NCBI RefSeq assembly: GCF_023091155.1
Contig: NZ_JAHWXK010000003.1
Location: 175,439-239,438, forward strand
Direction: 5' to 3'
DNA length: 64,000 nucleotides
Source of the DNA: Microbacterium sufflavum
Lineage (GTDB): Bacteria > Actinomycetota > Actinomycetes > Actinomycetales > Microbacteriaceae
Below are positions 6,201-62,921 of this stretch, piece by piece; the first letter of the stretch is position 1; the number at the start of each line of letters is the position of its first letter. The translations under genes were made by a program, and so were the position numbers. Under the pieces are notes generated by a model that did no database searches, had not been told where the DNA came from, and saw only the letters and a program-made list of their open reading frames with translations.

Positions 6201-7162
6201 GCTCCATCGCGGCGCCGTCACGACGCGCGAGCCCGACCGCGGCGGCGGGCGCCGAGCGCGTCGCGGCCGCCCCGGTGGAGCAGACCGGGCTGACCGCGTG
6301 GACCTTCGGCGACCTGCCCGAGGTGCTCGACACCCGGGTCGCCGGCGGCGTCGTGCGCGGTTACCCGGCGATCGTCGACGCGGGCAAGAGCGTCTCCGTA
6401 CGCGTGGAGGCGACCGCGGAGGCCGCCGCGACCGCGACCAGGGAGGGTGTGCTCCGGCTGGTGCTGCTCACGGTGCCCTCGCCGTCGTCGTACGTGCAGG
6501 AGCATCTGACGAGCCAGGAGAAGCTGGCGCTCGCGGCGTCGCCGTATCCCTCCGCCGCGGCGCTGATCGAAGACGCCAGGGCCGCGGTCGCCCGCCGCGT
6601 GATCGACGCGTCGACGGGCGGGCCGGACGGCGCCGGTCGCGGGATCGTGCGCACGGAGGCCGAGTTCGCCCGCGTCCGGGAGGCGGTGTCGGCGGTGCTC
6701 GTGGACGAGCTGTTCGCCGCCGTGTCCCTGGTGGCGCGGATCCTGGTCAAGGCGCGCGAGGTCGAGCGGGGCATCAAGGCGCAGAACTCCCTGGCACTGC
6801 TCGGACCGCTGAACGACATCCGCACGCAGCTGAGCGGTCTGCTGCACCCCGGGTTCGTGTCGGCGGCGGGCATCGACCGGCTCGCGCACTACCCCCGCTA
6901 CCTCGACGGCATGCTCGACCGCCTGAAGACGCTGGCGAACGAGCCGGGCAAGGACCGGGCGCGGCTGACCGAGTTCGAGCGCATGGCGACCGCGTTCACC
7001 GAGGCGGGCGGCACGATCCCGCTGCCGACCGACGCGCCGCCGACGCTGGTGGAGGTGCGGTGGCTGCTGGAGGAGTACCGCGTGAGCGTGTTCGCGCAGC
7101 GCCTCGGCACCGCACAGCCGGTCTCGCCGCAGCGGATCATGAAGGCGCTGTCCGGGCGCTGA
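3230..7162 (+). CDS. hrpA: ATP-dependent RNA helicase HrpA (DEAH box)
   Basis: 1310 residues, the usual length of bacterial HrpA. Superfamily 2 motifs appear in order: Walker A GATGSGKTTQ (35-44), PRRLAA motif Ia (62-67), DEAH (129-132), SAT (161-163) and QRSGRAGR motif VI (near 345). The C-terminal half carries the HrpA-specific DUF3418 region. HrpA unwinds RNA and in E. coli helps with stalled or collided ribosomes. The ATG has a GGAGGG just upstream, with only about 2 nt spacing, and a TACGAT box 8 nt before the start, so the mRNA may be nearly leaderless. The last codons and stop of this gene are the founding unit of the 17-bp repeat array that follows. Confidence 0.97.
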   Translation: MSSPVISYPPELPVSAAREEIADAVRDHQVVIVAGATGSGKTTQLPKIALELGRERIAHTQPRRLAARTIAERVAEELHVELGTLVGYKVRFTDKVSDATRIALMTDGILLNEIHRDRLLTRYDTIIIDEAHERSLNVDFLLGYLARILPERPDLKVIITSATIDPESFARHFAAADGTPAPIIEVSGRTYPVEIRYRPLVDDADEEASASGDPEDEVSAIVAALRELDREAPGDVLVFLPGEAEIRDAADAVRGAYGKDRSPTEVLPLFGRLSAAEQHRVFERSRVPGVRRRVVLATNVAETSLTVPGIKYVIDTGTARISRYSNRSKVQRLPIEAISQASANQRSGRAGRTSEGIAIRLYSEEDYDRRPEYTEPEILRTSLASVILQMLSLGFGDIEAFPFLTPPDSRGVKAAFDLLTELGAVEPSRRDGSTHLTRVGRDIARMPIDPRFARMLLEAGRDRSGAVLRDVLAIVAGLTIQDVRERPEERREEADRLHARFADPTSDFLTLLNLWNHLREQQRELGSSAFRRLCRAEHLNYVRVREWFDVHRQLRTLGKNPERGAEAGGAADPDAIHRALLSGLLSQIGILDERTAPAGKSHSPAKDPKRRVTEYRGARGIRFSIFPGSALRKKSPRAVMAAEIVETSRTFARTVAQIDPAWAEPLAGDLAKRQVTEPHWSKDAGAAVAFEKVTLFGVEIIPRRRVQFARIDRAASRELFVRHALVEGEWDPSRIDKRVSAFWRSNAELRRRLEKLEERERRRDILAGDEAVFRFYDERIPADVFDVRSFEKWWREALTTAPKLLVMRESDLVDEADRADQREFPTRWTQGDQVLGLAYRFAPGAPDDGVSVVLPLPLLAQIEDRGFDWQVPGLRAELVTGLLRALPKAIRRHVVPAADWAEKFGAELADQGPESHEGLPPRTLKEALARLIQPLANQLVSAADFEDDRVPAHLRMNFRAVDERGRVVGSGRDLRALQTELSDRARSSVARSIAAPSRRASPTAAAGAERVAAAPVEQTGLTAWTFGDLPEVLDTRVAGGVVRGYPAIVDAGKSVSVRVEATAEAAATATREGVLRLVLLTVPSPSSYVQEHLTSQEKLALAASPYPSAAALIEDARAAVARRVIDASTGGPDGAGRGIVRTEAEFARVREAVSAVLVDELFAAVSLVARILVKAREVERGIKAQNSLALLGPLNDIRTQLSGLLHPGFVSAAGIDRLAHYPRYLDGMLDRLKTLANEPGKDRARLTEFERMATAFTEAGGTIPLPTDAPPTLVEVRWLLEEYRVSVFAQRLGTAQPVSPQRIMKALSGR

Positions 7163-7353
7163 TCCTGTCCGGGCGCTGATCCGGTCCGGGCGCTGGTCCT
7201 GTCCGGGCGCTGATCCTGCCCGGGCGCTGACGGTGTCCTCCCCGGGCGGTGATCCTGACCGGGCGCTGATCCTGACCGGGCGCTGATCCTGACCGGGCGC
7301 TGATCCTGACCCGGCGCTGATCCGGTCCCGGCGCTGACCGTGTCCTCCCCGGG
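7148..7353. repeat. 17-bp tandem array (11 copies) seeded by the hrpA stop codon
   Basis: Copies of (T/A)CCGGGCGCTGATCCTG begin at 7151, 7168, 7185, 7202, 7219, about 7241, 7258, 7275, 7292, 7309 and 7326. The first copy is the end of hrpA itself: codons TCC GGG CGC and the TGA stop. Because 17 is not a multiple of three, the TGA recurs in all three frames. A higher-order duplication is also visible: GTGTCCTCCCCGGG at 7233-7246 is repeated exactly at 7340-7353, next to the promoter of the following gene. No open reading frame of interest lies in the array. Confidence 0.95.
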
Positions 7354-7365: not shown

Positions 7366-8310
7366 ATGGCCAGCGCGATCGTCTACACCGAGTTCGGCTC
7401 CCCCGATGTCCTGCACCTGATGGAGGTGCCCGATCCCGTCGCCGTGCGCGGCGAGGCCGTGGTGCGCATCGAGGCCGCCGGCGCGAACCCCATCGACGCG
7501 AAGCTGCGCAGCGGCAAGCGTCCGTCACCGCCGATCACCGAACCGCGGGGCGTCGGCTTCGACGGCGCGGGCGTGGTGGAGGTGCTCGGCGAGGGCGTCG
7601 ACGGGCTGGAGGTGGGCGACCGCGTCGCGATCCGTGACACGGTCGGCACGTACGCCTCGGCGCTCGCGGTCGAGGCCGACAAGCTGGTGAAGCTCCCCGA
7701 CGCGGTGACCGCGGCCGAGGGCGCCGCGATCGGCATCCCCGCCGGCACCGCGTATCAGGCGCTGCGCTCGCTCGGCGTGACCGCGGGCGACGTGCTCCTG
7801 ATGCACGGCGGCTCCGGCTCGGTGGGTCAGGCGGCGGTGCAGTTCGCGGTGGCCGGCGGCGCGACCGTGATCGCCACCGCGAGCCCCGCCCGGCACGAGC
7901 AGCTGCGCGAGCTCGGTGCCCTCCCCGTCGCATACGGAGACGGCCTGCTCGACCGCGTGCGCGCGGCCGCTCCGTCGCCCGTCACGGTGGCGCTCGACTG
8001 CGCGGGCACGGACGAGGCCATCGAGACCTCGCTCGCCCTGGTGCCCGACCGCGACCGCATCGCCACGATCGTGCGCGGCCCCGACGCGGCCGACTTCGGC
8101 ATCCGCGCGTTCTCGGGCGGCTCCCCCGTCCCGCTCACGGAGCAGGAGCTCGCCTGGCGCGCCGAAGCCCTGGAGAAGACCGTCGAGCTGCTCGCATCGG
8201 GCGACTTCACGATCGAGCTCGGCCCGGAGCTCCCGCTCGCCGAGGCGGCCCGGGCCCATGAGCTCATGGAATCCGGCGCCGCCTCGGGCAAGATCATTCT
8301 GGTGCCGTAG
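7366..8310 (+). CDS. Zinc-independent quinone oxidoreductase-like NADP-dependent alcohol dehydrogenase (MDR family)
   Basis: 314 residues, typical for the QOR branch of medium-chain dehydrogenase/reductases. The N-terminal GroES-like fold has the GAGVVEVLGEGVDGLEVGDRV pattern and the Rossmann domain begins at GGSGSVGQAAVQFA, the NADPH-binding loop. The Cys/His ligands for catalytic and structural zinc are absent, as in quinone oxidoreductases. It probably reduces quinones or enones with NADPH. It is convergent with the AhpD-like gene. Its own last codons and TAG stop are duplicated once immediately downstream. Confidence 0.92.
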   Translation: MASAIVYTEFGSPDVLHLMEVPDPVAVRGEAVVRIEAAGANPIDAKLRSGKRPSPPITEPRGVGFDGAGVVEVLGEGVDGLEVGDRVAIRDTVGTYASALAVEADKLVKLPDAVTAAEGAAIGIPAGTAYQALRSLGVTAGDVLLMHGGSGSVGQAAVQFAVAGGATVIATASPARHEQLRELGALPVAYGDGLLDRVRAAAPSPVTVALDCAGTDEAIETSLALVPDRDRIATIVRGPDAADFGIRAFSGGSPVPLTEQELAWRAEALEKTVELLASGDFTIELGPELPLAEAARAHELMESGAASGKIILVP

Positions 8311-8345: not shown

Positions 8346-9035
8346 TCAGGCCGGAGCCACGGGTCGACCGAGCGACAGCATCAGCCGGTTCGCCCAGTTG
8401 AAGAACGCGGCGCCGTGCACCACGTCGGCGATCTCGCCGTCGTCGAGCCCCGCGGATCGCAGGAGCGCGATGTGGTCGGCCCCGAACGCGCTGGGCGTCT
8501 CGGTCAGCGCGACGGAGGCCGCGACGATCGCGCTCCACCGCTCGCCGAGGTGGGCGGACACGCCCTCGTCGAGCAGCCGGTCCACGTCGTCTGGCCGCTT
8601 GCTGTGATGGGCCGCGAAGCGCGAGTGCACCGAGGCGCAGAACACGCAGCCGTTGCGCCGCGAGGCCGCGGTGGCCGCCAGCTCACGATCGGCCCTGGGC
8701 AGTCCGTCGGCGACGTTGTAGAAAATGTCCTTGTCGACCAGGGTGCGCGCCCGGAGCACCTCGGGGTCGCGCGCGAGCAGACGGAAGTAGTCGTTCTTGG
8801 CGCGAGCGGTGTCGACCAAACCGTCATAGTGCCGCTCGGCCAGCTCGTCCTCCGCGAGCGGGGGCAGGTGCGGCGTCCACCCGACCTCGGCGCGCGTGAA
8901 CCCGTGCGGGTGCGGGGCGTCGTCGTGTCGGAGCACGGTGTCGGCGGTGGCGGGCTCGGTGGTGGTGGCGGGGTCGGTGGTGTCGGTGGTGGTGGGCTCG
9001 GTGGTGGCGGGATCGGTGGTGTCGGTGGTGGTCAT
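8346..9035 (-). CDS. AhpD/carboxymuconolactone-decarboxylase-type peroxidase-related protein
   Basis: 229 residues. GCVFCASVH gives an AhpD-type CxxCxxxH active site (Cys130, Cys133, His137), expected to support peroxidase or thiol redox chemistry. It resembles the alkylhydroperoxidase-domain family that occurs beside luciferase-like monooxygenases and ABC transporters (the Avi_7169-type family). The first 30 residues are a low-complexity Thr/Asp/Pro/Glu stretch made of a duplicated 36-bp coding segment, unlikely to be part of the fold. The ATG at 9035 overlaps the preceding stop as ATGA, which fixes the start. This is the last gene of the operon. Confidence 0.85.
   Translation of the reverse strand: MTTTDTTDPATTEPTTTDTTDPATTTEPATADTVLRHDDAPHPHGFTRAEVGWTPHLPPLAEDELAERHYDGLVDTARAKNDYFRLLARDPEVLRARTLVDKDIFYNVADGLPRADRELAATAASRRNGCVFCASVHSRFAAHHSKRPDDVDRLLDEGVSAHLGERWSAIVAASVALTETPSAFGADHIALLRSAGLDDGEIADVVHGAAFFNWANRLMLSLGRPVAPA
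8950..9032 (-). repeat. Coding tandem repeat at the 5' end of the AhpD-like gene
   Basis: Two imperfect copies of a segment encoding approximately TTDTTDPATTEP. The period is a multiple of three, so the frame is kept. It extends the N-terminus by about two dozen disordered residues. Confidence 0.7.
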
Positions 9036-9682
9036 GCGGCCTCCTCCTCGGTCGGCACGGCGGTGGTGGGGGCGGTGGTGGCGGTGGTGGCGGTCGCGAG
9101 TCCGGCGGCGGCGAGCACGCGGAGCCCGGTCACGACGCGCTGCTGGAACGCCAGGAACGACACGAGCTGCGACACCGTGACGATGCCGTCGGGCGTCCAC
9201 CCCGCGTCGAGCAGGCGGCCCAGGTCGGCGGCCGAGGCCTCGCGCGGCCGCAGCACCAGCAGGTGCGCGTGGGCGAGCGCGGCGGCCAGTCGCTCGCCCA
9301 GAGCGTCCGTGGCGGTGGCGTCCGGCGCATACCTCAGCCCGTCGGTGCTCTCCCCCTGGAGCCCGGCCTCGGTGTACGCGCCGAACGGACCGGTGGCGGC
9401 GGCCCCGGCCAGCTCGGCCCTGACCACCGCGGCGCGCTCGGGATCGGCGGCCTCCGCCCGGTCGGCGTAGAACAGCGCGGTCGGGTCGTCGGCGCCGGCG
9501 AGCCCGGTCGCGAAGGCCGCGATCAGCTCTCGCTCGGCCTGCGACGCGTGCTGCACCGAGACGGGGCGGAACAGCGCGTCGAAGCTCGCCTGCAACTGCT
9601 CGCGCGTGATCGGACGGCGCCGCCGCAGCGCGTCGAGCCCCGGCGTCACCTCCGCGATGCGGTCGACGATGTCGTCGGTCAT
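9032..9682 (-). CDS. CMD-domain protein lacking the CxxC pair
   Basis: 216 residues, helical and Ala-rich, fitting the second carboxymuconolactone-decarboxylase-like protein that accompanies this type of cluster (Avi_7170-type family). Unlike its downstream neighbour it has no cysteine pair, so it may be a non-catalytic partner or act on a substrate without thiol chemistry. Start and stop both lie in ATGA overlaps with the monooxygenase upstream and the AhpD-like gene downstream, so the three should be made in fixed proportion. The C-terminus ends in a Thr/Ala-rich tail. Function not known. Confidence 0.8.
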   Translation of the reverse strand: MTDDIVDRIAEVTPGLDALRRRRPITREQLQASFDALFRPVSVQHASQAERELIAAFATGLAGADDPTALFYADRAEAADPERAAVVRAELAGAAATGPFGAYTEAGLQGESTDGLRYAPDATATDALGERLAAALAHAHLLVLRPREASAADLGRLLDAGWTPDGIVTVSQLVSFLAFQQRVVTGLRVLAAAGLATATTATTAPTTAVPTEEEAA

Positions 9683-10725
9683 GCGTTCTCCTTGAGGGTC
9701 GTGTCCGCGGGGGACGGGGTGAGGGCGTAGCCGAGTGCCGGGGCGACCTCGGCGGCGAACAGCTCGATCGAGCGCAGCACGTGCTCGTGGGGCGCGTCGA
9801 CCGAGTGCACCTGGAACGCGACCTCGGTCGCGCGGGACAGCGTCGCGTCGTCCGCGAGCGAGGCGGCCACCTCCTCCGGCGTGCCCAGGTGGGTGTCGAG
9901 CGCGGCGATCAGGTCGTCGAGGTCGTCGCCCGGGATCGTCTGCCCCTGGCGGCGGAAGCCCTCCGCGGCGCGCCGCAGCCCGACCTCCGCGAACCGCAGC
10001 GCCTCGGCCCTGTCATCCGCCACGAACACGGTGCGCGAGGCCGTGATGCGCGGCGTGACGCCGGCCGGCAGCGCGTCGAGGTAGACGTCGATGATGGGGT
10101 CCTGCAGCTCCGACAGCGGCGCGCGGAGGCGCTCGGCCGTGCGCGGCTGCGTGCGCGAGAGCAGCAGCCCGTGGCCGTGCACACCCGCGCGGCTCCCGCC
10201 CGCGGCCGAGAACGTCGCCTGCCAGACGCGTGAGGCGAGGTCGCCCGGGTCGGGGTACAGGGTGTTGTCGCCGCCGACGTCCTCGCCCGCGAGCGCGTCG
10301 AGCAGCACGCGCAGCTTGCGGTCGTACGTGGCGGCCTTGTCGCGCACGTCCTCCCCGAACGGTACGAACGACGAGGGCGTGCCCCCGCTGCCGAGCCCGA
10401 GATCGAGACGCCCGCCGGAGAGCAGGTCGGCGACCACCGCATCCTCCGCCACGCGCACCGGGTCTTCCAGTGGCAGCGTGATCACCCCGGTGCCGAGCCG
10501 GAGGCGGTTCGTATGCGCCGCGGCGTGCGCCAGGAACACAAGCGGCGACGGCAGCCCGCCCTCCGCGGCGCGGAAGTGATGCTGCGCGACCCACGCACGA
10601 CCGATGCCGTGCCGCTCCGCGTGCTGGAGCTGCGCCGTGGCCAGCGCGTAGCGATCGGCGGGCGACGCATCGTCGAGCAGACGGGTGAAGAACGCCACGG
10701 TGGGTGCGGCGGCTGGTGCGGTCAT
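9679..10725 (-). CDS. Luciferase-like FMN-dependent monooxygenase (KPN_01858-type)
   Basis: 348 residues with the bacterial luciferase-like TIM-barrel pattern: AFFTRLLDDASPADRYALATAQLQHAERHG at the start, RLRLGTGVITLPLEDPVRVAEDAVVADLLSGGR in the middle, and the DLGLGSGG turn. Such enzymes use reduced FMN and oxygen to oxidise small organic substrates. It is coupled through ATGA to the ABC ATPase upstream and the CMD gene downstream, so its substrate is probably the compound imported by the transporter. No flavin reductase gene is present in the operon; reduced flavin must come from elsewhere. Confidence 0.87.
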   Translation of the reverse strand: MTAPAAAPTVAFFTRLLDDASPADRYALATAQLQHAERHGIGRAWVAQHHFRAAEGGLPSPLVFLAHAAAHTNRLRLGTGVITLPLEDPVRVAEDAVVADLLSGGRLDLGLGSGGTPSSFVPFGEDVRDKAATYDRKLRVLLDALAGEDVGGDNTLYPDPGDLASRVWQATFSAAGGSRAGVHGHGLLLSRTQPRTAERLRAPLSELQDPIIDVYLDALPAGVTPRITASRTVFVADDRAEALRFAEVGLRRAAEGFRRQGQTIPGDDLDDLIAALDTHLGTPEEVAASLADDATLSRATEVAFQVHSVDAPHEHVLRSIELFAAEVAPALGYALTPSPADTTLKENA

Positions 10726-12365
10726 GCGAGGACCTCTCGGCTCTGGGGAGCGTCGCCGACGCCGGGCACGGCGGCGAGCAGCTCCCTGGTGTACTCGTGC
10801 TGCGGGTCGTGGAACAGCTCCTCGGTCCGGCCCTCCTCCACCACACGGCCGCGGCGCATGACCGACACCGTGTGACTGATGCGCCGCACCACCGCGAGGT
10901 CGTGCGAGATGAAGAGGTAGGTGAGCCCGAGCTCGGCCTGCAGCGAGGTGAGCAGCTCGAGGATGCGGGCCTGCACCGTCACGTCGAGCGCGGACACCGC
11001 CTCGTCGAGCACCACGATCTCCGGGTCGATCGCGAGGGCACGGGCGATCGCGACGCGCTGCCGCTGCCCGCCCGACAGCTCCCGCGGGGTGCGGCGGGCG
11101 ACGTCGGCCGGCAGCGCCACCCGGTCGAGCAGTGCGAGTGCGCGCTCCCGCCGTTCGGCCCTGCCGCCGACGCGGAAGTTCTGCAGGGGCTCCGCGACGA
11201 TGTCGACGACGTGCTGCCGCGGATCGAGCGACGCGAACGGGTTCTGGTACACGAGCTGGATGCGCCGGCGCAGCGCGCGCAGCGGCGCCCCCGTCGCGGC
11301 CGTCACGTCGGCCCCGGCGACCTCGATCGATCCGGCATCAGGGCGGTGGAACCGGGTGACGAGTCGTGCCGTGGTGGTCTTGCCCGAGCCCGACTCCCCC
11401 ACGAGCGCGTGCGTGGTGGCGCGGCGCACGCGGAACGACACGTCGTCCACCGCGCGGAACCGCTCGCGACCCGCCACGCGGAACTCCTTCACGAGCCCCT
11501 CGGCGACGATCGCGTAGGGGTTCTCGGCGGCGACCGCGGCCGCATCCCGCAGGAACGGCGGTGCGTCCGGCCGGCGGAACCCGGTCGCGAAGGCGGGCGC
11601 GTCGGCGAGCAGCTGCCGCGTGTACGGCTCCCGCGGCGCCGCGAGCACCGCGTCGCTCGCCCCCTGCTCGACGATGCGGCCGTCCTTGAGCACCACGAGC
11701 CGCGCGGCACGGTCGGCCGCGACCCCCAGGTCGTGCGTCACCAGCAGGATGCTCGTCCCCTCCTCGCGCTGGAGCTCGTCGAGAAGGTCGAGCACCGTGC
11801 GCTGCACCGTGGCGTCGAGCGCGCTGGTGGGCTCGTCCGCGATCAGCAGCCGCGGGCGCAGCGCCACCGCGGTCGCGATCAGCACGCGCTGCCGCATGCC
11901 GCCGGACAGCTCGTGCGGATACTGCCGTGCGCGCAGCCCCGGGTCGTCGATGCCCACGCGGTCGAGCAGCTCGATCGCCCTGGCCCGACGCGACCTCCGG
12001 TCGCGGTGCCCGTGCAGGCGCAGGATCTCCTCCACCTGCACCCCGACCGGGCGCACGGGGTCGAGCGAGGTGGTGGGGTCCTGCGGCACGAGCCCGATCT
12101 CGGGGCCGCGGATGCCGCGCAGGGCGCGGTCGCTCCAGCCGGAGATGTCGAGCTCGCCGAGGAGCACACGCCCCGCGTCGACGCGACCCCCCTCCGGCAG
12201 CAGCCCCAGCAGCGCGTGCGCCGTGGTGGACTTGCCCGACCCGGACTCGCCGACGAGCGCGAGCGTCTCACCCTCGGCGATGTCGAACGAGATGCCGTGC
12301 ACGACCTCCCGGTCGCCGTACGACACCGTGAGGCCGGTGGCGGTGAGGACGGGGCTCTCGCTCAT
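10722..12365 (-). CDS. Dual-domain ABC transporter ATPase (DppD-DppF fusion type)
   Basis: 547 residues starting MSESPVLTATG. Two complete nucleotide-binding domains are present: Walker A GESGSGKSTT (near residue 40), signature LSGGMRQR and Walker B LLIADEPTSALD; then GESGSGKTTT (near 320), LSGGQRQR and IVVLDEAVSALD. This fused arrangement powers peptide/nickel-family importers. The start at 12365 is chosen because its ATG overlaps the last mini-ORF stop as ATGA; a longer upstream reading of the same frame would run backwards through the 59-bp repeats and is not credible. It partners the two permeases and the solute-binding protein upstream. Confidence 0.93.
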   Translation of the reverse strand: MSESPVLTATGLTVSYGDREVVHGISFDIAEGETLALVGESGSGKSTTAHALLGLLPEGGRVDAGRVLLGELDISGWSDRALRGIRGPEIGLVPQDPTTSLDPVRPVGVQVEEILRLHGHRDRRSRRARAIELLDRVGIDDPGLRARQYPHELSGGMRQRVLIATAVALRPRLLIADEPTSALDATVQRTVLDLLDELQREEGTSILLVTHDLGVAADRAARLVVLKDGRIVEQGASDAVLAAPREPYTRQLLADAPAFATGFRRPDAPPFLRDAAAVAAENPYAIVAEGLVKEFRVAGRERFRAVDDVSFRVRRATTHALVGESGSGKTTTARLVTRFHRPDAGSIEVAGADVTAATGAPLRALRRRIQLVYQNPFASLDPRQHVVDIVAEPLQNFRVGGRAERRERALALLDRVALPADVARRTPRELSGGQRQRVAIARALAIDPEIVVLDEAVSALDVTVQARILELLTSLQAELGLTYLFISHDLAVVRRISHTVSVMRRGRVVEEGRTEELFHDPQHEYTRELLAAVPGVGDAPQSREVLA

Positions 12366-12424
12366 CGCGCTCCCCTTCCGAGGCGGTGGCTGATCGTGGT
12401 CGTGGACGCCGAGATCGCGCTCAT
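12362..12424 (-). CDS. Mini-ORF 3 in the 59-bp repeat array (20 codons)
   Basis: Encodes MSAISASTTT followed by ISHRLGRGAR. GGAAGGGGAG lies within the preceding repeat unit, about 5 nt before the ATG. Its stop overlaps the ABC ATPase ATG at 12365 as ATGA. Whether the peptide accumulates is unknown; the reading frame may serve to carry ribosomes to the next start. Confidence 0.5.
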   Translation of the reverse strand: MSAISASTTTISHRLGRGAR

Positions 12425-12483
12425 CGCACTCCCCTTCCGAGGCGGTGGCTGATCGTGGTCGTGGACGCAGAGATCGCACTCAT
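12421..12483 (-). CDS. Mini-ORF 2 in the 59-bp repeat array (20 codons)
   Basis: Encodes MSAISASTTT followed by ISHRLGRGVR. It starts in the ATGA that ends mini-ORF 1 and stops in the ATGA that starts mini-ORF 3. Ribosome-binding sequence GGAAGGAGAG precedes it. Confidence 0.5.
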   Translation of the reverse strand: MSAISASTTTISHRLGRGVR

Positions 12484-12542
12484 CGCACTCTCCTTCCGAG
12501 GCGGTGGCTGATCGTGGTCGTGGACGCAGAGATCGCGCTCAT
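12480..12542 (-). CDS. Mini-ORF 1 in the 59-bp repeat array (20 codons)
   Basis: Encodes MSAISASTTT followed by ISHRLGRRVR. Its ATG overlaps the permease stop codon as ATGA and it has GGAAGGGGAG upstream. The second half of the peptide matches the last ten residues of the permease (ISHRLGRGVR), showing that the unit arose by duplication of the gene end. Confidence 0.5.
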   Translation of the reverse strand: MSAISASTTTISHRLGRRVR

Positions 12543-13429
12543 CGCACTCCCCTTCCGAGGCGGTGGCTGATGCGGTTGGCGCTGAGCACCACCGCGACCA
12601 CGACGAGGCCGGGGAGGGCGGTGAGCCACCAGGCCGTCGCGATGTAGTTGCGCCCCTCGGCGATCAGCAGGCCCCACTCGGGCGTGGGCGGCGGAGCGCC
12701 GTAGCCGAGGAACCCGAGCGTGGAGATGGCGAGGATCGCGGTGCCGAACTGGAGCGCGGCGAGCGCGACGATCGGGGTGAGCGAGTTGGGCAGCACGTGG
12801 CGGCGCAGCACGGCGACGAACGTCCCGCCACTGCCGAACGCCGCCTCGACGTACTCGGTGCGCCGCACCCGCGCGACCTCGGCGCGCATCAGGCGCGCGA
12901 ACGCCGCGACGCTGCCGAGTCCCACCGCGATGGCCGCGTTGACGGTGCCGAACCCGAGCAGGATGATCACCGACAGCGACAGCAGCAGGCCGGGGATCGC
13001 CAGGAGCACGTCGACGATGCGCATCAGCACGTCGTCCACGATCCCGCCGACCGATCCGGCGATCGCACCGAGCACCGTGCCCAGGGCGAGGCCGACCGTC
13101 ACCGCGATCAGCGCGCCGGAGAGCGAGTGCACCGCGCCGTGCACGACCCGGCCGAACAGGTCGCGGCCGAGCGTGTCCGTGCCGAACCAGTGCGCGGCGC
13201 TCGGGGGCAGCAGCTTGTCGGCCGGCACGCCCGTGAGCGGGTCGCCCGGCGCGAACACCCCGGGGATCAGCGCCCAGAGCACCGCGAGCGCCACCGCGGC
13301 GACGGCCAGGTAGAGCCCCCACGGGCGGCGACGCAGGCCGCGACGGCGCCGCGGGGTCGCGGCGGGGGCGGGGGCCGAGGGTGTCGCGGAGACGGCGTCC
13401 GCGGTCTCGGCGATCACGGGCGCGGTCAT
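12539..13429 (-). CDS. ABC transporter permease, DppC/OppC type
   Basis: 296 residues. A basic cytoplasmic N-terminus with RRRRGLRRR precedes the first membrane helix (YLAVAAVALAVLWALIPGVF), then HWFGTDTLGRDLFGRVVHG, the classical DppC/OppC signature, and five further hydrophobic segments. Pairs with the DppB-type permease, its start overlapping that gene's stop as ATGA. The C-terminal tail ISHRLGRGVR and stop codon are the seed of the 59-bp repeats downstream. Confidence 0.93.
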   Translation of the reverse strand: MTAPVIAETADAVSATPSAPAPAATPRRRRGLRRRPWGLYLAVAAVALAVLWALIPGVFAPGDPLTGVPADKLLPPSAAHWFGTDTLGRDLFGRVVHGAVHSLSGALIAVTVGLALGTVLGAIAGSVGGIVDDVLMRIVDVLLAIPGLLLSLSVIILLGFGTVNAAIAVGLGSVAAFARLMRAEVARVRRTEYVEAAFGSGGTFVAVLRRHVLPNSLTPIVALAALQFGTAILAISTLGFLGYGAPPPTPEWGLLIAEGRNYIATAWWLTALPGLVVVAVVLSANRISHRLGRGVR

Positions 13430-14403
13430 GCGGTGGCCTCCTGCAGCGTGCGGCGGGGTTCGGGGCGACCGCGGCGGGCGGAGGTGCGCTGCCGCGGGTC
13501 GATGAGCGGCGTGGCGAGGTCGACCGCGAAGCTGATGAGCACGAAGCCGAGTGCCGACAGCAGCACCACCCCCTGCAGCACCGGGATGTCCTGGTTCGCG
13601 ACGGCCTGCTCCGTGAGGCGTCCGATCCCGGTTCGGCCGAACACGGTCTCCGTCACGACGGCGCCGCCCACGAGCTCACCGAACAGCACGCCCGCGATCG
13701 TGAGCGTCGGCACCGCCGCGTTGCGCGCGACCGAGCGCGTGAGCACCCACGCCGGCGGTGCGCCCTTCGCCCGCAGCACGGTCACGAACGGCTGCGCCTG
13801 CACCTGGTCGATCGCCCGCACCAGCACCTGGGCGAGGGGCGCGGAGATCGGCACGGCCAGGGTGAGCACGGGCAGCACGAGCCCGCTCACCGGGTCGGCT
13901 CCCACGATCGGCACCCAGCCGAGGCCGAACGAGAACACCTGGATGAGCAGGATCCCGAGCCAGAACACCGGCACCGCGACGAAGAGGCCAGGCACCTGGC
14001 GCAGTCCCGTGCGCAGCCACGCGAACGGCGCCAGCGACGACAGGCCGGCGATCAGCACGGCCAGCACGAGCGCCACCGCGAGCCCGAGCGACGCGAGCAG
14101 CAAGGTCGCGGGCAGCGCCTCGGCCAGCATCGTGCGCACCGGGGTGCCGAACTGCGTCGAGTAGCCGAAGTCGCCGGCGAGGAAGCCGAGCCCGGCGTGC
14201 ACGTACTGCTCCCACCACGGCAGGTCGGCGCCATAGGTCGCGCGGATCCCGTCGAGCTGCTCCGGCGAGAGCCCGAGGCTCGGGTCGGAGAACTTGATCA
14301 GGATCGCGTCGCCCGGCAGGAGCTGCAGCAGGAAGAAGGTGGCCGTGAAGGCCGCGGCCAGCACGATCGCGGCCTGCCCGGCTCGTCGGAGGACGAAGCT
14401 CAT
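13426..14403 (-). CDS. ABC transporter permease, DppB/OppB type
   Basis: 325 residues starting MSFVLRRAGQAAIVLAAAF, a first helix typical of DppB/OppB, followed by the periplasmic loop DPSLGLSPEQLDGIRATYG and five more membrane segments. VKG-like QPFVTVLRAKGAPPAWVLTRS is the cytoplasmic EAA-type loop that contacts the ATPase. Start chosen at 14403, 16 bp downstream of the solute-binding protein stop; a longer frame would have a poor arginine-rich extension. Confidence 0.92.
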   Translation of the reverse strand: MSFVLRRAGQAAIVLAAAFTATFFLLQLLPGDAILIKFSDPSLGLSPEQLDGIRATYGADLPWWEQYVHAGLGFLAGDFGYSTQFGTPVRTMLAEALPATLLLASLGLAVALVLAVLIAGLSSLAPFAWLRTGLRQVPGLFVAVPVFWLGILLIQVFSFGLGWVPIVGADPVSGLVLPVLTLAVPISAPLAQVLVRAIDQVQAQPFVTVLRAKGAPPAWVLTRSVARNAAVPTLTIAGVLFGELVGGAVVTETVFGRTGIGRLTEQAVANQDIPVLQGVVLLSALGFVLISFAVDLATPLIDPRQRTSARRGRPEPRRTLQEATA

Positions 14404-14419
14404 CGCGTCACCGTCGCCC

Positions 14420-16054
14420 TCAGTGCTCCGCGAGCCAGACGCCGGAGAACGTGGGGCGCCCGACCGACTCGAACGCCACGCCGTGCACGTACGTCGCGGC
14501 ACCGTAGACCTGCGGCTCCTCGAACAGCGGGATCACGTAGGCCTGCTCGGCGATGTAGTCCTGCACGGCCTGCGACGCGGCGATGCGCGCGTCGGCGTCG
14601 GGCTCGGAGGCCACGGCGAGCAGCAGCTCGTCGAGCGTCGCGTCCTGCGAGATCAGCACGTCGCGGTTCTTCGTGAAGTACTGGCTCTTGATCACGTCGA
14701 GGTCGGCGCGTCCGACCATCGAGTGATAGAACCCGGTCTTCAGCGGGTCGCGCGTGTCCTCGGCATAGGTGCCGGCATCGCCGGGCTTCACGGTCAGCTC
14801 GACGCCGACCTTCGCGAGCTGCTGGGCGATCAGCTCCAGCGTCTGCTTCGACAACGGCTGCGGCTTCGCCTCGTAGACCGTGATCGCGAGGCGCTCGCCG
14901 TCCTTCTCCCTGATGCCGTCGCCTGCGGGCGTCCAGCCGGCCTCGTCGAGCAGCTCCTCGGCCCGGTCGGGGTCGAAGGTGTAGTGCTCCGACTCGTCCT
15001 TGTAGCCGACCGCCTGGGAGGACAGCACCGACGTCGCCACCGGGTAGTTCTCGGTGAAGAGCGTGTCGACCACCTCCTGCGCGTTCACGGCCGCGATGAT
15101 CGCCTGGCGCACGCGGATGTCGGAGAGCAGCGGGTTGTCCGGCCGCAGGGCGATCGAGTTGTTCACGCCGCGGGTCTGCGGGGCGTAGAGCGTGAAGCCG
15201 GCGCCCTCCACACGATCCTCGTCGAACGCCTGCACGTAGCGCACGTAGTCGGCCTGCCCCGCGAGCAGCGAGCCGATGCGCACGGAGTCCTCCGGGGTGA
15301 TCAGCACGTGCACGGCGTCGAGGTACGGGCGGCCGTCGTTGTCGGCGCTCTCCGGACCCCAGGCGTAGTCGTCGCGCGCGGCGAGGGTGTACTCCGTGCC
15401 GAGCTTCTCGTCGGTGACGGTGAACGGACCGGAGCCGATGATGTCGGCCGCATTGCCCGCGCCGAAGTCCTCGATCGTGCCGTCGAGCGTGTCGGGTGAC
15501 AGCAGGCCGGAGTTGATGGTGGACGTGGCCTGCAGGAACCCGGGCGACGGGGCGGAGAAGCGGAACGTGACGGTGTCCTCGTCGACCACCTCGCTGCCGG
15601 CGTAGTTGTTGATCGCCTCGGACACGGTGAGCCCGCGGTCGGCGTCGCCCAGGCCGTAGGTGTCGAAGTTCTTCGCGACGGCGGCGGCGTCGAGGGGCGT
15701 GCCGTCCGAGAAGGTGACGCCGGGGTTCAGGTCGAACGTGTACTCGGTGGCGTCGTCGTTCACGGTCCAGTCCGCGGCGACCCACGGCTCGATCTCGAGC
15801 GTCTCCGGGTTCTGCCACGTGAGCCGGGCGGCGATGTTGTTGACGATGCCGCCATTCGGGTAGAAGCCGGCCTGCGGCGGGTACAGGTTCGTGTACGCCT
15901 GGTGCTCCAGGTACGTGAGCGTGCCGCCCGTGACAGGGGCCCCGGCGTCGGTCGGTGTGCCGGCGGGGGCGGCGGAGGTCGCGCACGCGGCGAGGCTCCC
16001 GGCCAGGACGAGGGGCAGCGCGACGGCGGCGGTGCGGATCAGGCGGCGGTTCAT
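14420..16054 (-). CDS. ABC transporter solute-binding lipoprotein, family 5
   Basis: 544 residues with a lipoprotein signal: basic MNRRLIR, hydrophobic VALPLVLAGSLAAC with the lipobox cysteine at 24. The body has the SBP family 5 pattern (GGTLTYLEHQAYTNLYP, EIEPWVAADWTVNDDATEYTF, LNPGVTFSDGTPLDA). It would capture the substrate outside the membrane for the permease pair. It resembles the KPN_01854-type binding proteins that co-occur with luciferase-like monooxygenases; the ligand is unknown but family 5 members bind peptides, nickel, opines or glycosides. First gene of the ABC segment. Confidence 0.92.
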   Translation of the reverse strand: MNRRLIRTAAVALPLVLAGSLAACATSAAPAGTPTDAGAPVTGGTLTYLEHQAYTNLYPPQAGFYPNGGIVNNIAARLTWQNPETLEIEPWVAADWTVNDDATEYTFDLNPGVTFSDGTPLDAAAVAKNFDTYGLGDADRGLTVSEAINNYAGSEVVDEDTVTFRFSAPSPGFLQATSTINSGLLSPDTLDGTIEDFGAGNAADIIGSGPFTVTDEKLGTEYTLAARDDYAWGPESADNDGRPYLDAVHVLITPEDSVRIGSLLAGQADYVRYVQAFDEDRVEGAGFTLYAPQTRGVNNSIALRPDNPLLSDIRVRQAIIAAVNAQEVVDTLFTENYPVATSVLSSQAVGYKDESEHYTFDPDRAEELLDEAGWTPAGDGIREKDGERLAITVYEAKPQPLSKQTLELIAQQLAKVGVELTVKPGDAGTYAEDTRDPLKTGFYHSMVGRADLDVIKSQYFTKNRDVLISQDATLDELLLAVASEPDADARIAASQAVQDYIAEQAYVIPLFEEPQVYGAATYVHGVAFESVGRPTFSGVWLAEH

Positions 16055-17666: not shown

Positions 17667-18662
17667 ATGACTGGTCTTCGTTGGGGAATCCTCGCGACCG
17701 GCGGCATCGCCGGCGCCTTCGCTTCCGACCTGCGCACGGCGGGCCTCGACCTGGTCGCGGTCGGCTCGCGCTCGCAGGAGTCCGCCGACGCGTTCGCCGC
17801 GCGGTTCGACATCCCGCACGCGCACGCCTCGTACGAGGCGCTCGTGGCGGATCCCGACGTCGACATCATCTACGTCTCCACACCCCATCCGATGCACCAC
17901 GAGAACGCCCGGCTCGCCCTGGAGCACGGCAAGCACGTGCTGGTCGAGAAGGCGTTCACGCTGAACCAGGCCGAGGCCGCCGACCTGCAGGCGCTCGCCG
18001 CCGAGCGCGGCCTGCTGGTCACCGAGGCCATGTGGACCAGGTATCTGCCGCACATGGTGCGCATCCGCGAGCTGATCGCCGAGGGGGCGCTGGGCGAGAT
18101 CCGCACCGTGAGCGCCGACCACACGCAGCTCCTGCCGACCGACCCGGCGCACCGCCTGAACGCGCTGGAGCTGGGCGGCGGCGCGCTGCTCGACCTCGGC
18201 ATCTACCCGATCTCGTTCATCTGGGACATCCTGGGTGCCCCCACCAGCATCCGCGCGGTGGGCCGCCTGGTCGAGACGGGCGCCGACTCCGAGGTCGCCA
18301 CGGTCATGACGCACGAGGGCGGCGCAGTGTCGACCAGCCTGTCGTCCTCGCGCGGCGCGGGCCCCAACGCGGCGAGCATCGTGGGCACCGCCGCCCGCAT
18401 CGACATCGATCGCGTCTGGTACGCGCCCACCACGTTCCGTCTGGTGCTGCCCGACGGCACGGTCGCGGAGGAGTACGTGACCGACATCACCGGGCGCGGG
18501 ATGCAGTTCGAGGCGATCGCGGCGGAGCGTCTCGTGGCCGAGGGGAACCTCGCCGGCGACATCCTCCCGATCGCCGAGAGCGTCGCGATCATGGGGGCGC
18601 TCGACGAGATCCGCGCCCAGATCGGCGTCCGCTACCCCGGCGAGGAGGACCACCGTGGCTGA
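17667..18662 (+). CDS. Gfo/Idh/MocA-family oxidoreductase (trans-dihydrodiol dehydrogenase-like)
   Basis: 331 residues beginning MTGLRWGILATGGIAGAFASDL, a Rossmann NAD(P) loop in which the usual GxGxxG is ATGGIAG. Next come VDIIYVSTPHPMHHENARLALEHGKHVLVEKAF with the catalytic-site Lys of the EKP-like motif (here EKAF), and TEAMWTRYLP. These are typical of the dimeric dihydrodiol dehydrogenase/glucose-fructose oxidoreductase branch. Substrate not predictable. The start is set by the promoter 6 nt upstream. It overlaps the NYN gene by 8 nt, so the two are co-expressed. Confidence 0.9.
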   Translation: MTGLRWGILATGGIAGAFASDLRTAGLDLVAVGSRSQESADAFAARFDIPHAHASYEALVADPDVDIIYVSTPHPMHHENARLALEHGKHVLVEKAFTLNQAEAADLQALAAERGLLVTEAMWTRYLPHMVRIRELIAEGALGEIRTVSADHTQLLPTDPAHRLNALELGGGALLDLGIYPISFIWDILGAPTSIRAVGRLVETGADSEVATVMTHEGGAVSTSLSSSRGAGPNAASIVGTAARIDIDRVWYAPTTFRLVLPDGTVAEEYVTDITGRGMQFEAIAAERLVAEGNLAGDILPIAESVAIMGALDEIRAQIGVRYPGEEDHRG

Positions 18663-19617
18663 GACCCCCGACGCCCGTGTCGCGGTCTACCTGGACTTCG
18701 ACAACATCGTCATCTCCTGGTACGACCGCGTCCACGGCCGCAACTCGTACGGCAAGGACCGCCAGCGCATCACCGAGAACCCCAACGACCCCGAGGTCGC
18801 CGAGCGGTTGAACAGGGCGATGATCGAGGTCGGCGCCATCATCGACTACGCCGCCTCGTTCGGCACCCTCGTGCTCACCAGGGCCTACGCCGACTGGTCG
18901 TCGCCCGTGAACGCCGAGTACCGCTCGCAGCTCGTGGCCCGTGCGGTCGACCTGGTGCAGCTGTTCCCGGCCGCCGCGTACGCCAAGAACGGCGCCGACA
19001 TCCGGCTCGCGGTCGACGCGGTGGAGGACATGTTCCGCCTGCCCGACCTCACCCACGTGGTGATCGTGGCGGGCGACAGCGACTACGTGCCGCTCGCGCA
19101 GCGCTGCAAGCGCCTCGGCCGCTACGTGATCGGGGTCGGCGTGGCCGGCTCCACCGCGAAGTCGCTCGCCGCCGCGTGCGACGAGTTCGAGTCGTACGAC
19201 TCGCTGCCCGGTGTCGCCCGCCCGGCGAAGAGCGTGAACCGCACGCCCGCGGAGGCCCCGGCGGAACTCGCGGCCCCACCGGCGGACACCGCGACCAAGC
19301 CGAAGGCGGCACCCAAGACGCGCGCGAAGGCCAAGGCCGCGAAGACCGAGGAGCCCAAGGTCGAGGAGAAGATCGACGACCAGGGCGAAGCCACGCGTCT
19401 GCTGGAGCGGGCCCTGCGCCTCGGGCACGACAAGGCCGATGCCGACGAGTGGCTGCACAGCTCAGCGGTCAAGACGCACATGCGCCGCATGGACCCGTCC
19501 TTCAGCGAGAAGGCGCTCGGCTACCGGTCGTTCTCCGACTTCCTGAAGTCGCGCGACGACATCGCCGAGCTCGAGGAGACGGGGCACGAGCGCCTCGTCC
19601 GCCTGCGCGAGCCCTGA
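18655..19617 (+). CDS. NYN-domain RNA-processing protein with C-terminal LOTUS/OST-HTH domain
   Basis: 320 residues with a GTG start preceded by GAGGAGGA. Residues 1-180 form a NYN (PIN-like) nuclease fold: acidic site residues in VAVYLDFDNIVISW, the NGADIRLAVDAVE loop and VAGDSDYVPLAQ match the LabA/DUF88 family. A Lys/Ala/Pro linker follows, then a C-terminal domain ending KALGYRSFSDFLKSRDDIAELEE, the winged-helix LOTUS/OST-HTH pattern, which binds RNA. The combination suggests a sequence- or structure-directed ribonuclease; the target is unknown. The final codons RLREP and TGA seed the 24-bp array. Confidence 0.88.
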   Translation: MAETPDARVAVYLDFDNIVISWYDRVHGRNSYGKDRQRITENPNDPEVAERLNRAMIEVGAIIDYAASFGTLVLTRAYADWSSPVNAEYRSQLVARAVDLVQLFPAAAYAKNGADIRLAVDAVEDMFRLPDLTHVVIVAGDSDYVPLAQRCKRLGRYVIGVGVAGSTAKSLAAACDEFESYDSLPGVARPAKSVNRTPAEAPAELAAPPADTATKPKAAPKTRAKAKAAKTEEPKVEEKIDDQGEATRLLERALRLGHDKADADEWLHSSAVKTHMRRMDPSFSEKALGYRSFSDFLKSRDDIAELEETGHERLVRLREP

Positions 19618-19743
19618 TCCCCCCGCCTGCGCGAGCCCTGATCCACCCGCCTGCGCGGGGCCTGATCCATCCGCCTGCGCGAGCCCTGATCCCCCCGCCG
19701 GCGCGAGCCCTGATCCCCCCGCCTGCGCGGGGCCTGGCCCATC
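19600..19743. repeat. 24-bp tandem array (6 copies) seeded by the NYN-LOTUS stop codon
   Basis: Units begin at 19600, 19624, 19648, 19672, 19696 and 19720 with consensus CGCCTGCGCGAGCCCTGATC plus four C-rich bases. Copy 1 is the gene end itself (codons for RLREP and TGA). Copies 3 and 6 share a GGGGCC variant, so a three-unit (72-bp) segment was probably duplicated secondarily. The period is eight codons, so the stop recurs in one frame. Confidence 0.95.
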
Positions 19744-19761
19744 CAGGCCGAGGTCCGGCCC

Positions 19762-61387: not shown

Positions 61388-62921
61388 GCATGTGCTCCTT
61401 TGCGATGCGGGCGACCTGGCCCGACTGGACGAGTGCGGTCACGGCTTCCATGTCCGGCGAGAGGTAGTGGTCGGGGCCCGGACCGGCGGCGACGGTCCGC
61501 ACGAGGTCGCGGATGGCGCCGGTCGCGGCTCCGGCCTCGAGGGGCGCGCGCAGATCGAGGGCTCGCGCAGCCGTGAGGATCTCGATCGCGAGCACGCGCG
61601 ACAGTCCATCGATCGCACGGCGCAGCTTGCGGGCGGCCGCCCAGCCCATCGAGACATGGTCCTCCTGCATCGCCGACGACGGGATCGAGTCGACCGAGGC
61701 GGGCACGGCCAGGCGCTTGAGCTCGGAGACGATGCCCGCCGCGGCGTACTGGGCGATCATGAGGCCCGAGTCCACGCCCACCTCCGCGGCCAGGAAGGGC
61801 GGCAGTCCGTGGCTGCGCGCGGGGTCGAGCGCGCGGTCGGTGCGGCGCTCCGACACCGAGGCGACGTCGGCGACCGAGATGGCCAGGAAGTCCAGCACGG
61901 CGGCGACGGGTGCGCCGTGGAAGTTGCCATTGGACTCGATGCGGCCGTCGAGGGTGATGACCGGGTTGTCGATCACGCTGGAGAGCTCACGCAGCGCGAT
62001 CGTCTCGGCGTGCGCGACCGTGTCCCGGGCGGCCCCGTGCACCTGCGGAGAGCACCGGAGGGAGTAGGCGTCCTGCACACGTCCATCCTCCGGCCCCTTG
62101 TGGCTGGCCACCATGGGCGAGTCGGCGAGCAGCGCGCGAAGGTGTGCCGCCGAGATCGACTGTCCCGCCTGCGGGCGCAGCGCCATCAGGTCCGCAGCGA
62201 AGACGGCGTCGGTACCGAGCTGCGATTCGATCGACATCGCCGCGGCCACGTCCGCCGTGAGAAGAAGTGTGTCGAGGTCGTGCAGGGCCAGCGCCAGCAT
62301 GCCGAGCATGCCGTCCGTGCCGTTGATCAGCGCGAGGCCTTCCTTCTCGACCAGTGTCAGCGGAGCGATCGCCGCGGCAGCCAGGGCGTCGGCGGCGGGG
62401 AGGAGAGTCCCCTGCGCGTCGCGCACGTCCCCCTCCCCCATGGTCGCGAGCGCGATGTGGGCGAGGGGCGCCAGATCGCCGGAGCAGCCGAGGGAGCCGT
62501 ACTCGCGCACGACCGGTGTGATGCCGGCGTTGAGGAGCGCCGCGTACGTCTCCACCACCGCGGGCCGCACCCCGGTGCGACCGGAGGCGAGGGTCTGCAG
62601 GCGCAGCAGCTGCAGTCCGCGGACCACCTCGCGCTCGACCTCCGGACCGGTACCGGCGGCGTGCGAGCGGATCAGACTCGCCTGCAGCTGCAGACGACGC
62701 TCGGGCGCGATGAACGTCGTGGCCAGCGCGCCGAAGCCGGTCGACACTCCGTAGTGCGGGTGCGGATCCGACGCGAGCCCGTCGATCACACGACGGGTCT
62801 CGGCCACCCGCTCCAGGGCCTCGGCGGGAACGACGACGGGTGCTCCGTGACGAGCCACGCGGACGACATCCGCGAGAGACACGGGACCGCGACCGACGAC
62901 GACGGGGGTGGAAGAGCTCAT
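61380..62921 (-). CDS. hutH: Histidine ammonia-lyase
   Basis: 513 residues. It forms trans-urocanate and ammonia from histidine. The MIO-forming loop is [14 protein letters not shown], so the tripeptide is Cys146-Ser147-Gly148 where most family members have Ala-Ser-Gly; the Cys form is also seen in other actinobacteria. Tyr57 in HYGVSTGFG is the catalytic tyrosine. Head of the hutHUI operon, divergent from the IclR gene. Confidence 0.97.

Follow-up and report, generated by a model that had tools for sequence, protein, structure and literature searches.

The 64,000-nucleotide stretch of Microbacterium sufflavum DNA analyzed here (the window; its genome is G000 in our survey) carries an ATP-binding cassette (ABC) transporter operon on its minus strand, in which a 59-bp tandem array lies between a permease gene and an ATPase gene. 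Tandem Repeats Finder (TRF) places the array at positions 12359-12571, with 3.6 copies, 96% matches and a score of 398. On the minus strand, the permease stop codon (TGA, 12541-12539) is followed by three short open reading frames (mini-ORFs 1, 2 and 3) and then by the ATPase start codon (ATG, 12365). Each mini-ORF comprises 20 codons plus a stop, and all four junctions of the array are formed by the tetramer ATGA (12542-12539, 12483-12480, 12424-12421 and 12365-12362), in which a stop codon overlaps the next start codon. The sequence GGAAGG(G/A)GAG ends 4 nucleotides before every start, with a calculated duplex energy with the anti-Shine-Dalgarno (anti-SD) sequence of -8.5 to -9.4. A first-pass annotation of the window had described three consecutive ATGA-coupled mini-ORFs in which every unit recreates a ribosome-binding site, a start and an overlapping stop, and the TRF result and our reading of the sequence bear this out in both respects. 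The features of the array, read from the sequence, are as follows.

12359..12571, minus strand: tandem array, period 59 bp, 3.6 copies, amounting to three extra copies of the permease-ATPase junction (also TRF)
12547..12556, minus strand: SD site of mini-ORF 1, GGAAGGGGAG, within the permease end (duplex energy -8.5)
12480..12542, minus strand: mini-ORF 1, MSAISASTTTISHRLGRRVR*
12488..12497, minus strand: SD site of mini-ORF 2, GGAAGGAGAG (duplex energy -9.4)
12421..12483, minus strand: mini-ORF 2, 20 codons, ATGA at both ends
12429..12438, minus strand: SD site of mini-ORF 3, GGAAGGGGAG (duplex energy -8.5)
12362..12424, minus strand: mini-ORF 3, 20 codons, ATGA at both ends
12370..12379, minus strand: SD site of the ATPase, GGAAGGGGAG (duplex energy -8.5)

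The three units are not identical and are distinguished by point changes. The junction unit is found once in its own genome, where a 341-nucleotide query retrieved its own locus and one 22-nucleotide match. Compared with 200 shuffled sequences, the RNA of the array shows less folding (z = +3.26) and no unusually stable fold. A 582-codon open frame on the plus strand (10704-12452) runs antisense through the ATPase gene and the array, and is probably an effect of high G+C content.

The surrounding operon codes for a TIGR04028 substrate-binding protein, two permeases, a fused ABC ATPase, and proteins of the TIGR04027, TIGR04029 and TIGR04030 families. All genes from the DppB permease through to AhpD had been described as linked by ATGA overlaps, and the ORF ends agree, with further ATGA junctions at 13429-13426, 10725-10722, 9682-9679 and 9035-9032. 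The identity of the permease beside the array required correction, because it is of the DppC/NikC type and the DppB/NikB-type permease is encoded one gene further upstream. The genes are listed below in the order of transcription.

14420..16054, minus strand: substrate-binding protein TIGR04028 (SBP_KPN_01854; 783.9 bits, cut-off 468.5)
13426..14409, minus strand: DppB/NikB-type permease, ATGA-coupled to the next permease, start codon taken at 14409 (Opp2B 230.6 bits, below the cut-off of 350)
12539..13429, minus strand: DppC/NikC-type ABC permease, stop codon TGA at 12541-12539 (NCBIfam Opp2C/NikC matches below the curated cut-off)
10722..12365, minus strand: fused two-domain dipeptide/nickel-type ABC ATPase, start coupled to mini-ORF 3 (NF008453, dipeptide ABC ATP-binding, 467.7 bits, cut-off 408)
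9679..10725, minus strand: luciferase-like monooxygenase TIGR04027, ATGA-coupled to the ATPase (506.4 bits, cut-off 412.9)
9032..9682, minus strand: CMD domain protein TIGR04029, ATGA-coupled (158.6 bits, cut-off 100.75)
8346..9035, minus strand: AhpD-type protein TIGR04030, ATGA-coupled, last of the coupled run (267.4 bits, cut-off 233.15)

In the AhpD-type gene, a Thr/Asp/Pro repeat (8937-9032) starts right after the ATGA junction; it differs between two strains and stays in frame.

Homologous junctions were collected by a DNA search with the permease end, which matched 164 of 366 genomes of the genus at E <= 1e-50. We took 131 loci from 130 genomes (G365 contributed two), with lower-scoring genomes falling outside the sample, and parsed 129 of these. 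The unparsed loci are L076, which has a plain overlap in a separate reading, and L193. At least five sampled loci (L073, L078, L079, L218 and L219) make up a tail group of their own and are possibly paralogs. Because the parser searches all three frames for the ATPase Walker A motif, it carries no bias toward coupled alleles. A single overlap of start and stop codons is present in 122 of the 129 junctions (104 ATGA, 13 GTGA and 5 TGATG). The junction thus has the hallmarks of a coupled gene pair, namely an SD site in the upstream gene and a short overlap that is conserved in relatives. The other seven junctions carry extra units, as follows.

G000 (window genome): three units of 59 nucleotides
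G160 (same species as the window): one unit of 59 nucleotides
G108: unit of 65 nucleotides
G308 and G295: unit of 65 nucleotides, linker in common
G023: unit of 68 nucleotides
G300: unit of 56 nucleotides, GTG start

In all seven alleles, RTGA (ATGA or GTGA) is kept at both ends of the extra units, and thus the coupled arrangement survived expansion as the first-pass annotation had proposed. Its suggestion to compare related strains revealed that copy number varies within a species, with three units in G000 and one in G160 (two genomes). Extra units are confined to loci whose permease ends in the SHR tail (7 of 47, versus 0 of the 82 other parsed loci). From a second set of 80 named loci, 48 were parsed, and an extra unit was found only in L080, which by sequence is G023 again. 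Most named loci have plain overlaps; the ATPase starts behind the permease stop in L131 (+2), L132 (+5) and L157 (+40), and was not seen nearby in five further named loci. When two SD-ATGA modules at this spacing were used as a pattern, 42 of the 366 genomes matched, six of them at this locus, and the remaining matches look like chance matches inside genes (judged by eye, not one by one). The pattern represents one SD spacing and misses G300, and hence is no proof that the junction is unique. A match in G210 was rejected as an extra-unit junction because it is a 30-nucleotide repeat at another place. In L087 (Glaciibacter superstes), the ATPase N-terminus behind the permease stop contains an in-frame 15-bp repeat (LSQA..LSQA..), which is another route by which the junction has grown.

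A chain of RTGA overlaps by itself is poor evidence for such an element. When the DNA retrieved for this analysis (1.95 million strand-bases) was scanned mechanically, it returned 117 rows with bare RTGA chains, of which eight correspond to these arrays, and we therefore rejected the bare chain as a criterion. An SD-like core precedes the first junction in 14 of the 117 rows, and all eight array rows are among these 14. Two individual chains were also set aside. One, on the window minus strand near 61,440, has no repeat, and its frames differ from those of the two genes there, which by eye resemble hutH and hutU (no family search was made). The other, in L139, has no repeat and lies on the strand opposite to the operon. 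The array in the window is more than a chance chain, being a tandem repeat whose units are set apart by point changes and which has a one-unit counterpart in another genome of the species.

The composition of the unit points to its origin. The last ~30 nucleotides of each unit are a copy of the permease gene end, ATCAGCCACCGCCTCGGAAGGGGAGTGCGATGA, which encodes ISHRLGRGVR plus the stop codon and also supplies the next ORF with its SD site and start codon. Judged by this identity, the permease end is the source of the repeat. The first ~30 nucleotides form a linker that begins like an ATPase start, resembling the ATPase N-termini of relatives. With alignments anchored at the start codon and every third of 47 clade ATPase starts as targets, the linkers of the window species, G160 and G023 beat 60 of 60 shuffles, with a weaker signal in G308 (59 of 60) and G295 (58 of 60). 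Free local alignment of the linkers to ATPase starts was discarded, since the scores were at or within the range of 100 shuffles in all five cases tested. A tandem duplication across the junction would give a chimera of this kind, and the mini-ORF is probably an ATPase-like start fused to a permease tail, although an ATPase origin of the linker is only partly demonstrated. Most mini-ORF tails read ISHR(L/I)GR, with ISHHLGR in G295 and GHRIGSS in G300, and the N-terminal halves differ between lineages. The mini-ORF start in L022 (G023), MTAVISA..ATDL, matches the start of its own ATPase as protein and differs at synonymous sites, perhaps through unequal exchange with a related strain.

The five linker lineages have periods of 59, 65, 65, 68 and 56, all of which leave a remainder of two when divided by three (2 mod 3). 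A unit of such length makes each copy a closed mini-ORF, and the chain is intact in all alleles found. No other remainder would spare the permease C-terminus, the ATPase N-terminus and both overlaps alike. With a period of 0 mod 3 the ATPase would be lengthened at its N-terminus, since the tail is open in that frame (QPPPRKGSAMS), and a period of 1 mod 3 would break the chain. Alleles with a chain-breaking period, which would have spoken against the original proposal, are absent from the 129 parsed junctions. The narrower idea that copies always keep a 59-bp period holds within the species (two genomes) and fails between species, where periods of 56, 65 and 68 occur and only the remainder is kept. 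If the origins were independent and the lengths random, both of which are questionable, agreement in all five lineages would occur with a probability of about 0.004, taking one in three for each. On a tree of 52 loci, the extra-unit label requires six gains or losses, three of them forced by well-supported branches. Seven of nine mini-ORF tails have their closest permease tail in the same genome, as separate origins through lineage-specific copying or ongoing conversion would give; the tail of G160 is nearest to that of G000, and the tail of G308 to those of other species.

Evidence for selection on the encoded peptide was sought in one species pair. The mini-ORFs of G308 and G295 differ by six nonsynonymous and no synonymous codon changes, including one at the R of ISHR, versus three nonsynonymous and 38 synonymous changes in the last 160 permease codons (Fisher 7.8e-6). 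The frame, overlaps and SD sites are kept despite the peptide change. Thus, no purifying selection on the mini-ORF amino acids was detected in this pair, and since the verdict rests on one comparison, a conserved peptide is unlikely rather than excluded. The array also shows no sign of the features expected of a regulatory leader peptide, namely conserved codon content or an RNA structure controlling the next gene: the linkers differ between lineages and the window array RNA is less structured than its shuffles.

We favor the explanation, at a probability of roughly 0.7, that the array represents a variable-number tandem repeat (VNTR) of short length in which each unit is a complete termination-reinitiation module, and that it is tolerated since only such periods spare both proteins and their coupling. 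Local duplication of the operon junction would have created the repeat, each unit copying the last ~30 nucleotides of the permease gene, with its internal SD site and ATGA, together with a linker beginning like the ATPase start. A ribosome ending the permease at ATGA might then restart on mini-ORF 1, continue through mini-ORFs 2 and 3, and finally reach the ATPase, and fresh initiation could also occur at each start through its own SD site. Duplications with other periods presumably arose as well and were removed, as they would alter the ATPase N-terminus or lose the coupling. The array itself would be near-neutral, with at most a modest effect on the ATPase level. For E. coli menD-menH, the last 15 nucleotides of the upstream gene are described as enough for termination-reinitiation (PMC10666635), which makes it plausible that the copied ~30 nucleotides constitute a whole portable coupling module. 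Moreover, neighboring tandem arrays also differ between G000 and G160, indicating that the region is prone to duplication and favoring tolerated repeat turnover filtered by reading frame. Of the two roles first proposed for the array, tolerance of a period that preserved coupling is the better supported.

Several arrays near the junction were recorded in their own right. A 17-bp array of 11.4 copies (7148-7345; ..CCGGGCGCTGATC..) lies just before the gene at 7366, is represented by ~4-5 copies in G160, and accounts for all eight own-genome matches of a two-unit pattern. A 24-bp array at the end of and behind gene 18655-19617 (19598-19744) has 5.8 copies in the window and 4.8 in G160. In L250 (G160), positions 1827-1906 hold a 20-bp array that repeats the end of a gene resembling quinone oxidoreductase (named by eye), including its TAG stop codon, and TRF lists no counterpart at that place in the window strain.

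A number of observations somewhat dampen our confidence in the VNTR explanation. The coupling is something we infer from the anatomy of the junctions, and the relay ends do not all look intact. The ATPase SD site of G300 is weakened (duplex energy -3.5), and in L168 (G295) the ATPase start after the mini-ORF is one base out of frame at a C-rich stretch, reflecting a sequencing error or a real frameshift. The anchored linkers of G108 and G300 carry no ATPase signal (54 and 49 of 60 shuffles beaten). The units of G000 and G160 differ by 0-1 nonsynonymous and 2-3 synonymous changes each, small numbers that lean against an absence of selection. So, again on small numbers, does the mini-ORF start of G023, which is separated from the ATPase start of that genome by synonymous changes and an insertion of three codons. 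Finally, four lineages have the right breakpoint ATCAGYCAC in common, which one old duplication followed by conversion, losses and in-frame linker indels would also explain, as would a microhomology hotspot.

Adaptive tuning, the other role first proposed, is possible for the ATPase output, although we think it unlikely to be why the array exists. Each relay would lose or recruit ribosomes and so set the ratio of permease to ATPase, with copy number acting as a slow rheostat; a loss at each relay is conceivable. The gathering of five linker lineages with extra units at SHR-tail loci is what such a role might produce, as is the pattern search, in which the matches outside this locus look like chance. 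Upstream nonsense ORFs can also raise output, as reported for synthetic short upstream ORFs, which boost translation up to 20-fold (PMC13255528), and for a minigene that raises txe expression (PMC8708949). However, most species have no extra units, arrays near but outside the junction also vary between the two strains, and the G300 allele has a weak last SD site. A broader version is similarly doubtful, in which Microbacterium species evolved a translational rheostat in parallel, repeatedly multiplying the coupling module because the number and strength of relays set the subunit ratio. Operon junctions would then be evolvable, copy-number-tuned elements, with the mycobacterial interspersed repetitive units (MIRUs) as one instance.

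The frame rule could also have a mechanical cause. Recombination between codon-aligned RIS stretches of the two genes (N-R-I-S in the permease, L-R-I-S in the ATPase) could yield 2 mod 3 from its breakpoints with no selection on frame. The breakpoint held in common by four lineages fits such a bias, as do two RIS codon sets located 59 nucleotides apart in the relative L009 (counted by hand) and the ATDL-IS sequence kept at the G023 junction. However, the periods vary (56, 59, 65 and 68), and the expected LR-IS junction is missing from linkers outside G023, so we judge a purely mechanical origin improbable.

An action of the 19-23 residue products on the transporter, such as mimicry of the permease C-tail, seems very unlikely. 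Every product does end in a copy of the permease tail, and the differences between G000 and G160 are mostly synonymous, but the sharing of this tail needs no other reason than that its DNA is what was copied. The lineages have different N-terminal halves, and the six-to-zero excess of nonsynonymous changes between G308 and G295 extends to the R of ISHR. The proposal that the 20-residue peptides are real products consequently finds no support. An assembly artefact or chance chain can be all but dismissed: chance RTGA chains are common in this DNA, and two of the genomes with extra units, G023 and G108, are drafts (83% and 79% complete), but point changes separate the three window units, extra units occur in five lineages, and G160, a single contig that is 100% complete, carries the unit and so refutes this explanation for the window.

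These alleles constitute a natural series (0, 1 and 3 relays; periods of 56 to 68) for a debated question, namely how efficiently terminating ribosomes restart and what effect repeated hand-over has. They also suggest a simple rule by which an operon junction can grow without breaking either protein, and that an architecture like that of MIRUs can arise anew by local duplication and not only by a mobile element.

Our literature search, which left most subscription papers outside its coverage, turned up no description of the array, and MIRUs were the only duplicated coupled junctions that it returned. The original paper on MIRU repeats and the senX3-regX3 junction is reportedly that of Supply et al. 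in 1997. Termination-reinitiation at -4 overlaps is well documented (PMC10666635, PMC12548453). As in other coupled -4 (ATGA) gene pairs, the junction described here has the stop/start tetramer, an SD site in the upstream gene and subunits of one complex on either side, whereas here the junction itself has been multiplied into tandem mini-cistrons between two genes. Bicistronic designs and nfORF leader peptides (PMC13255528, PMC12548453) and the axe-txe minigene (PMC8708949) likewise use a short ORF, with no known function of its product, that affects or delivers ribosomes to the next gene. The Microbacterium mini-ORFs differ in being natural, in lying behind a full gene within an operon, in occurring several in series, and in that their effect is only predicted. 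Small mycobacterial ORFs joined to the next gene by RTGA are described at the 5' ends of leaderless transcripts (PMC4633059), whereas those studied here are internal duplications.

The closest precedent is the mycobacterial MIRU array at senX3-regX3. MIRUs are described as repeats carrying an ORF that is coupled, at a spacing of -4, to the gene behind it (PMC12548453), and the senX3-regX3 array as three 77-bp units, or two 77-bp and one 53-bp unit, in different strains (PMC4213456). In both systems, repeat units lie within an operon, and a -4 overlap couples an ORF to its neighbor, as in the four ATGA junctions of the window. Both arrays differ between strains, and by our arithmetic the reported lengths of 77 and 53 are also 2 mod 3. 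However, MIRUs are interspersed and apparently mobile, whereas the 341-nucleotide query placed the Microbacterium unit at a single locus of its own genome. Because this genome holds it once, it is not an interspersed element. Its sequence derives from the genes that flank it, and the units of other lineages are different. By analogy, the Microbacterium array would work as MIRU arrays do, without being an interspersed element.

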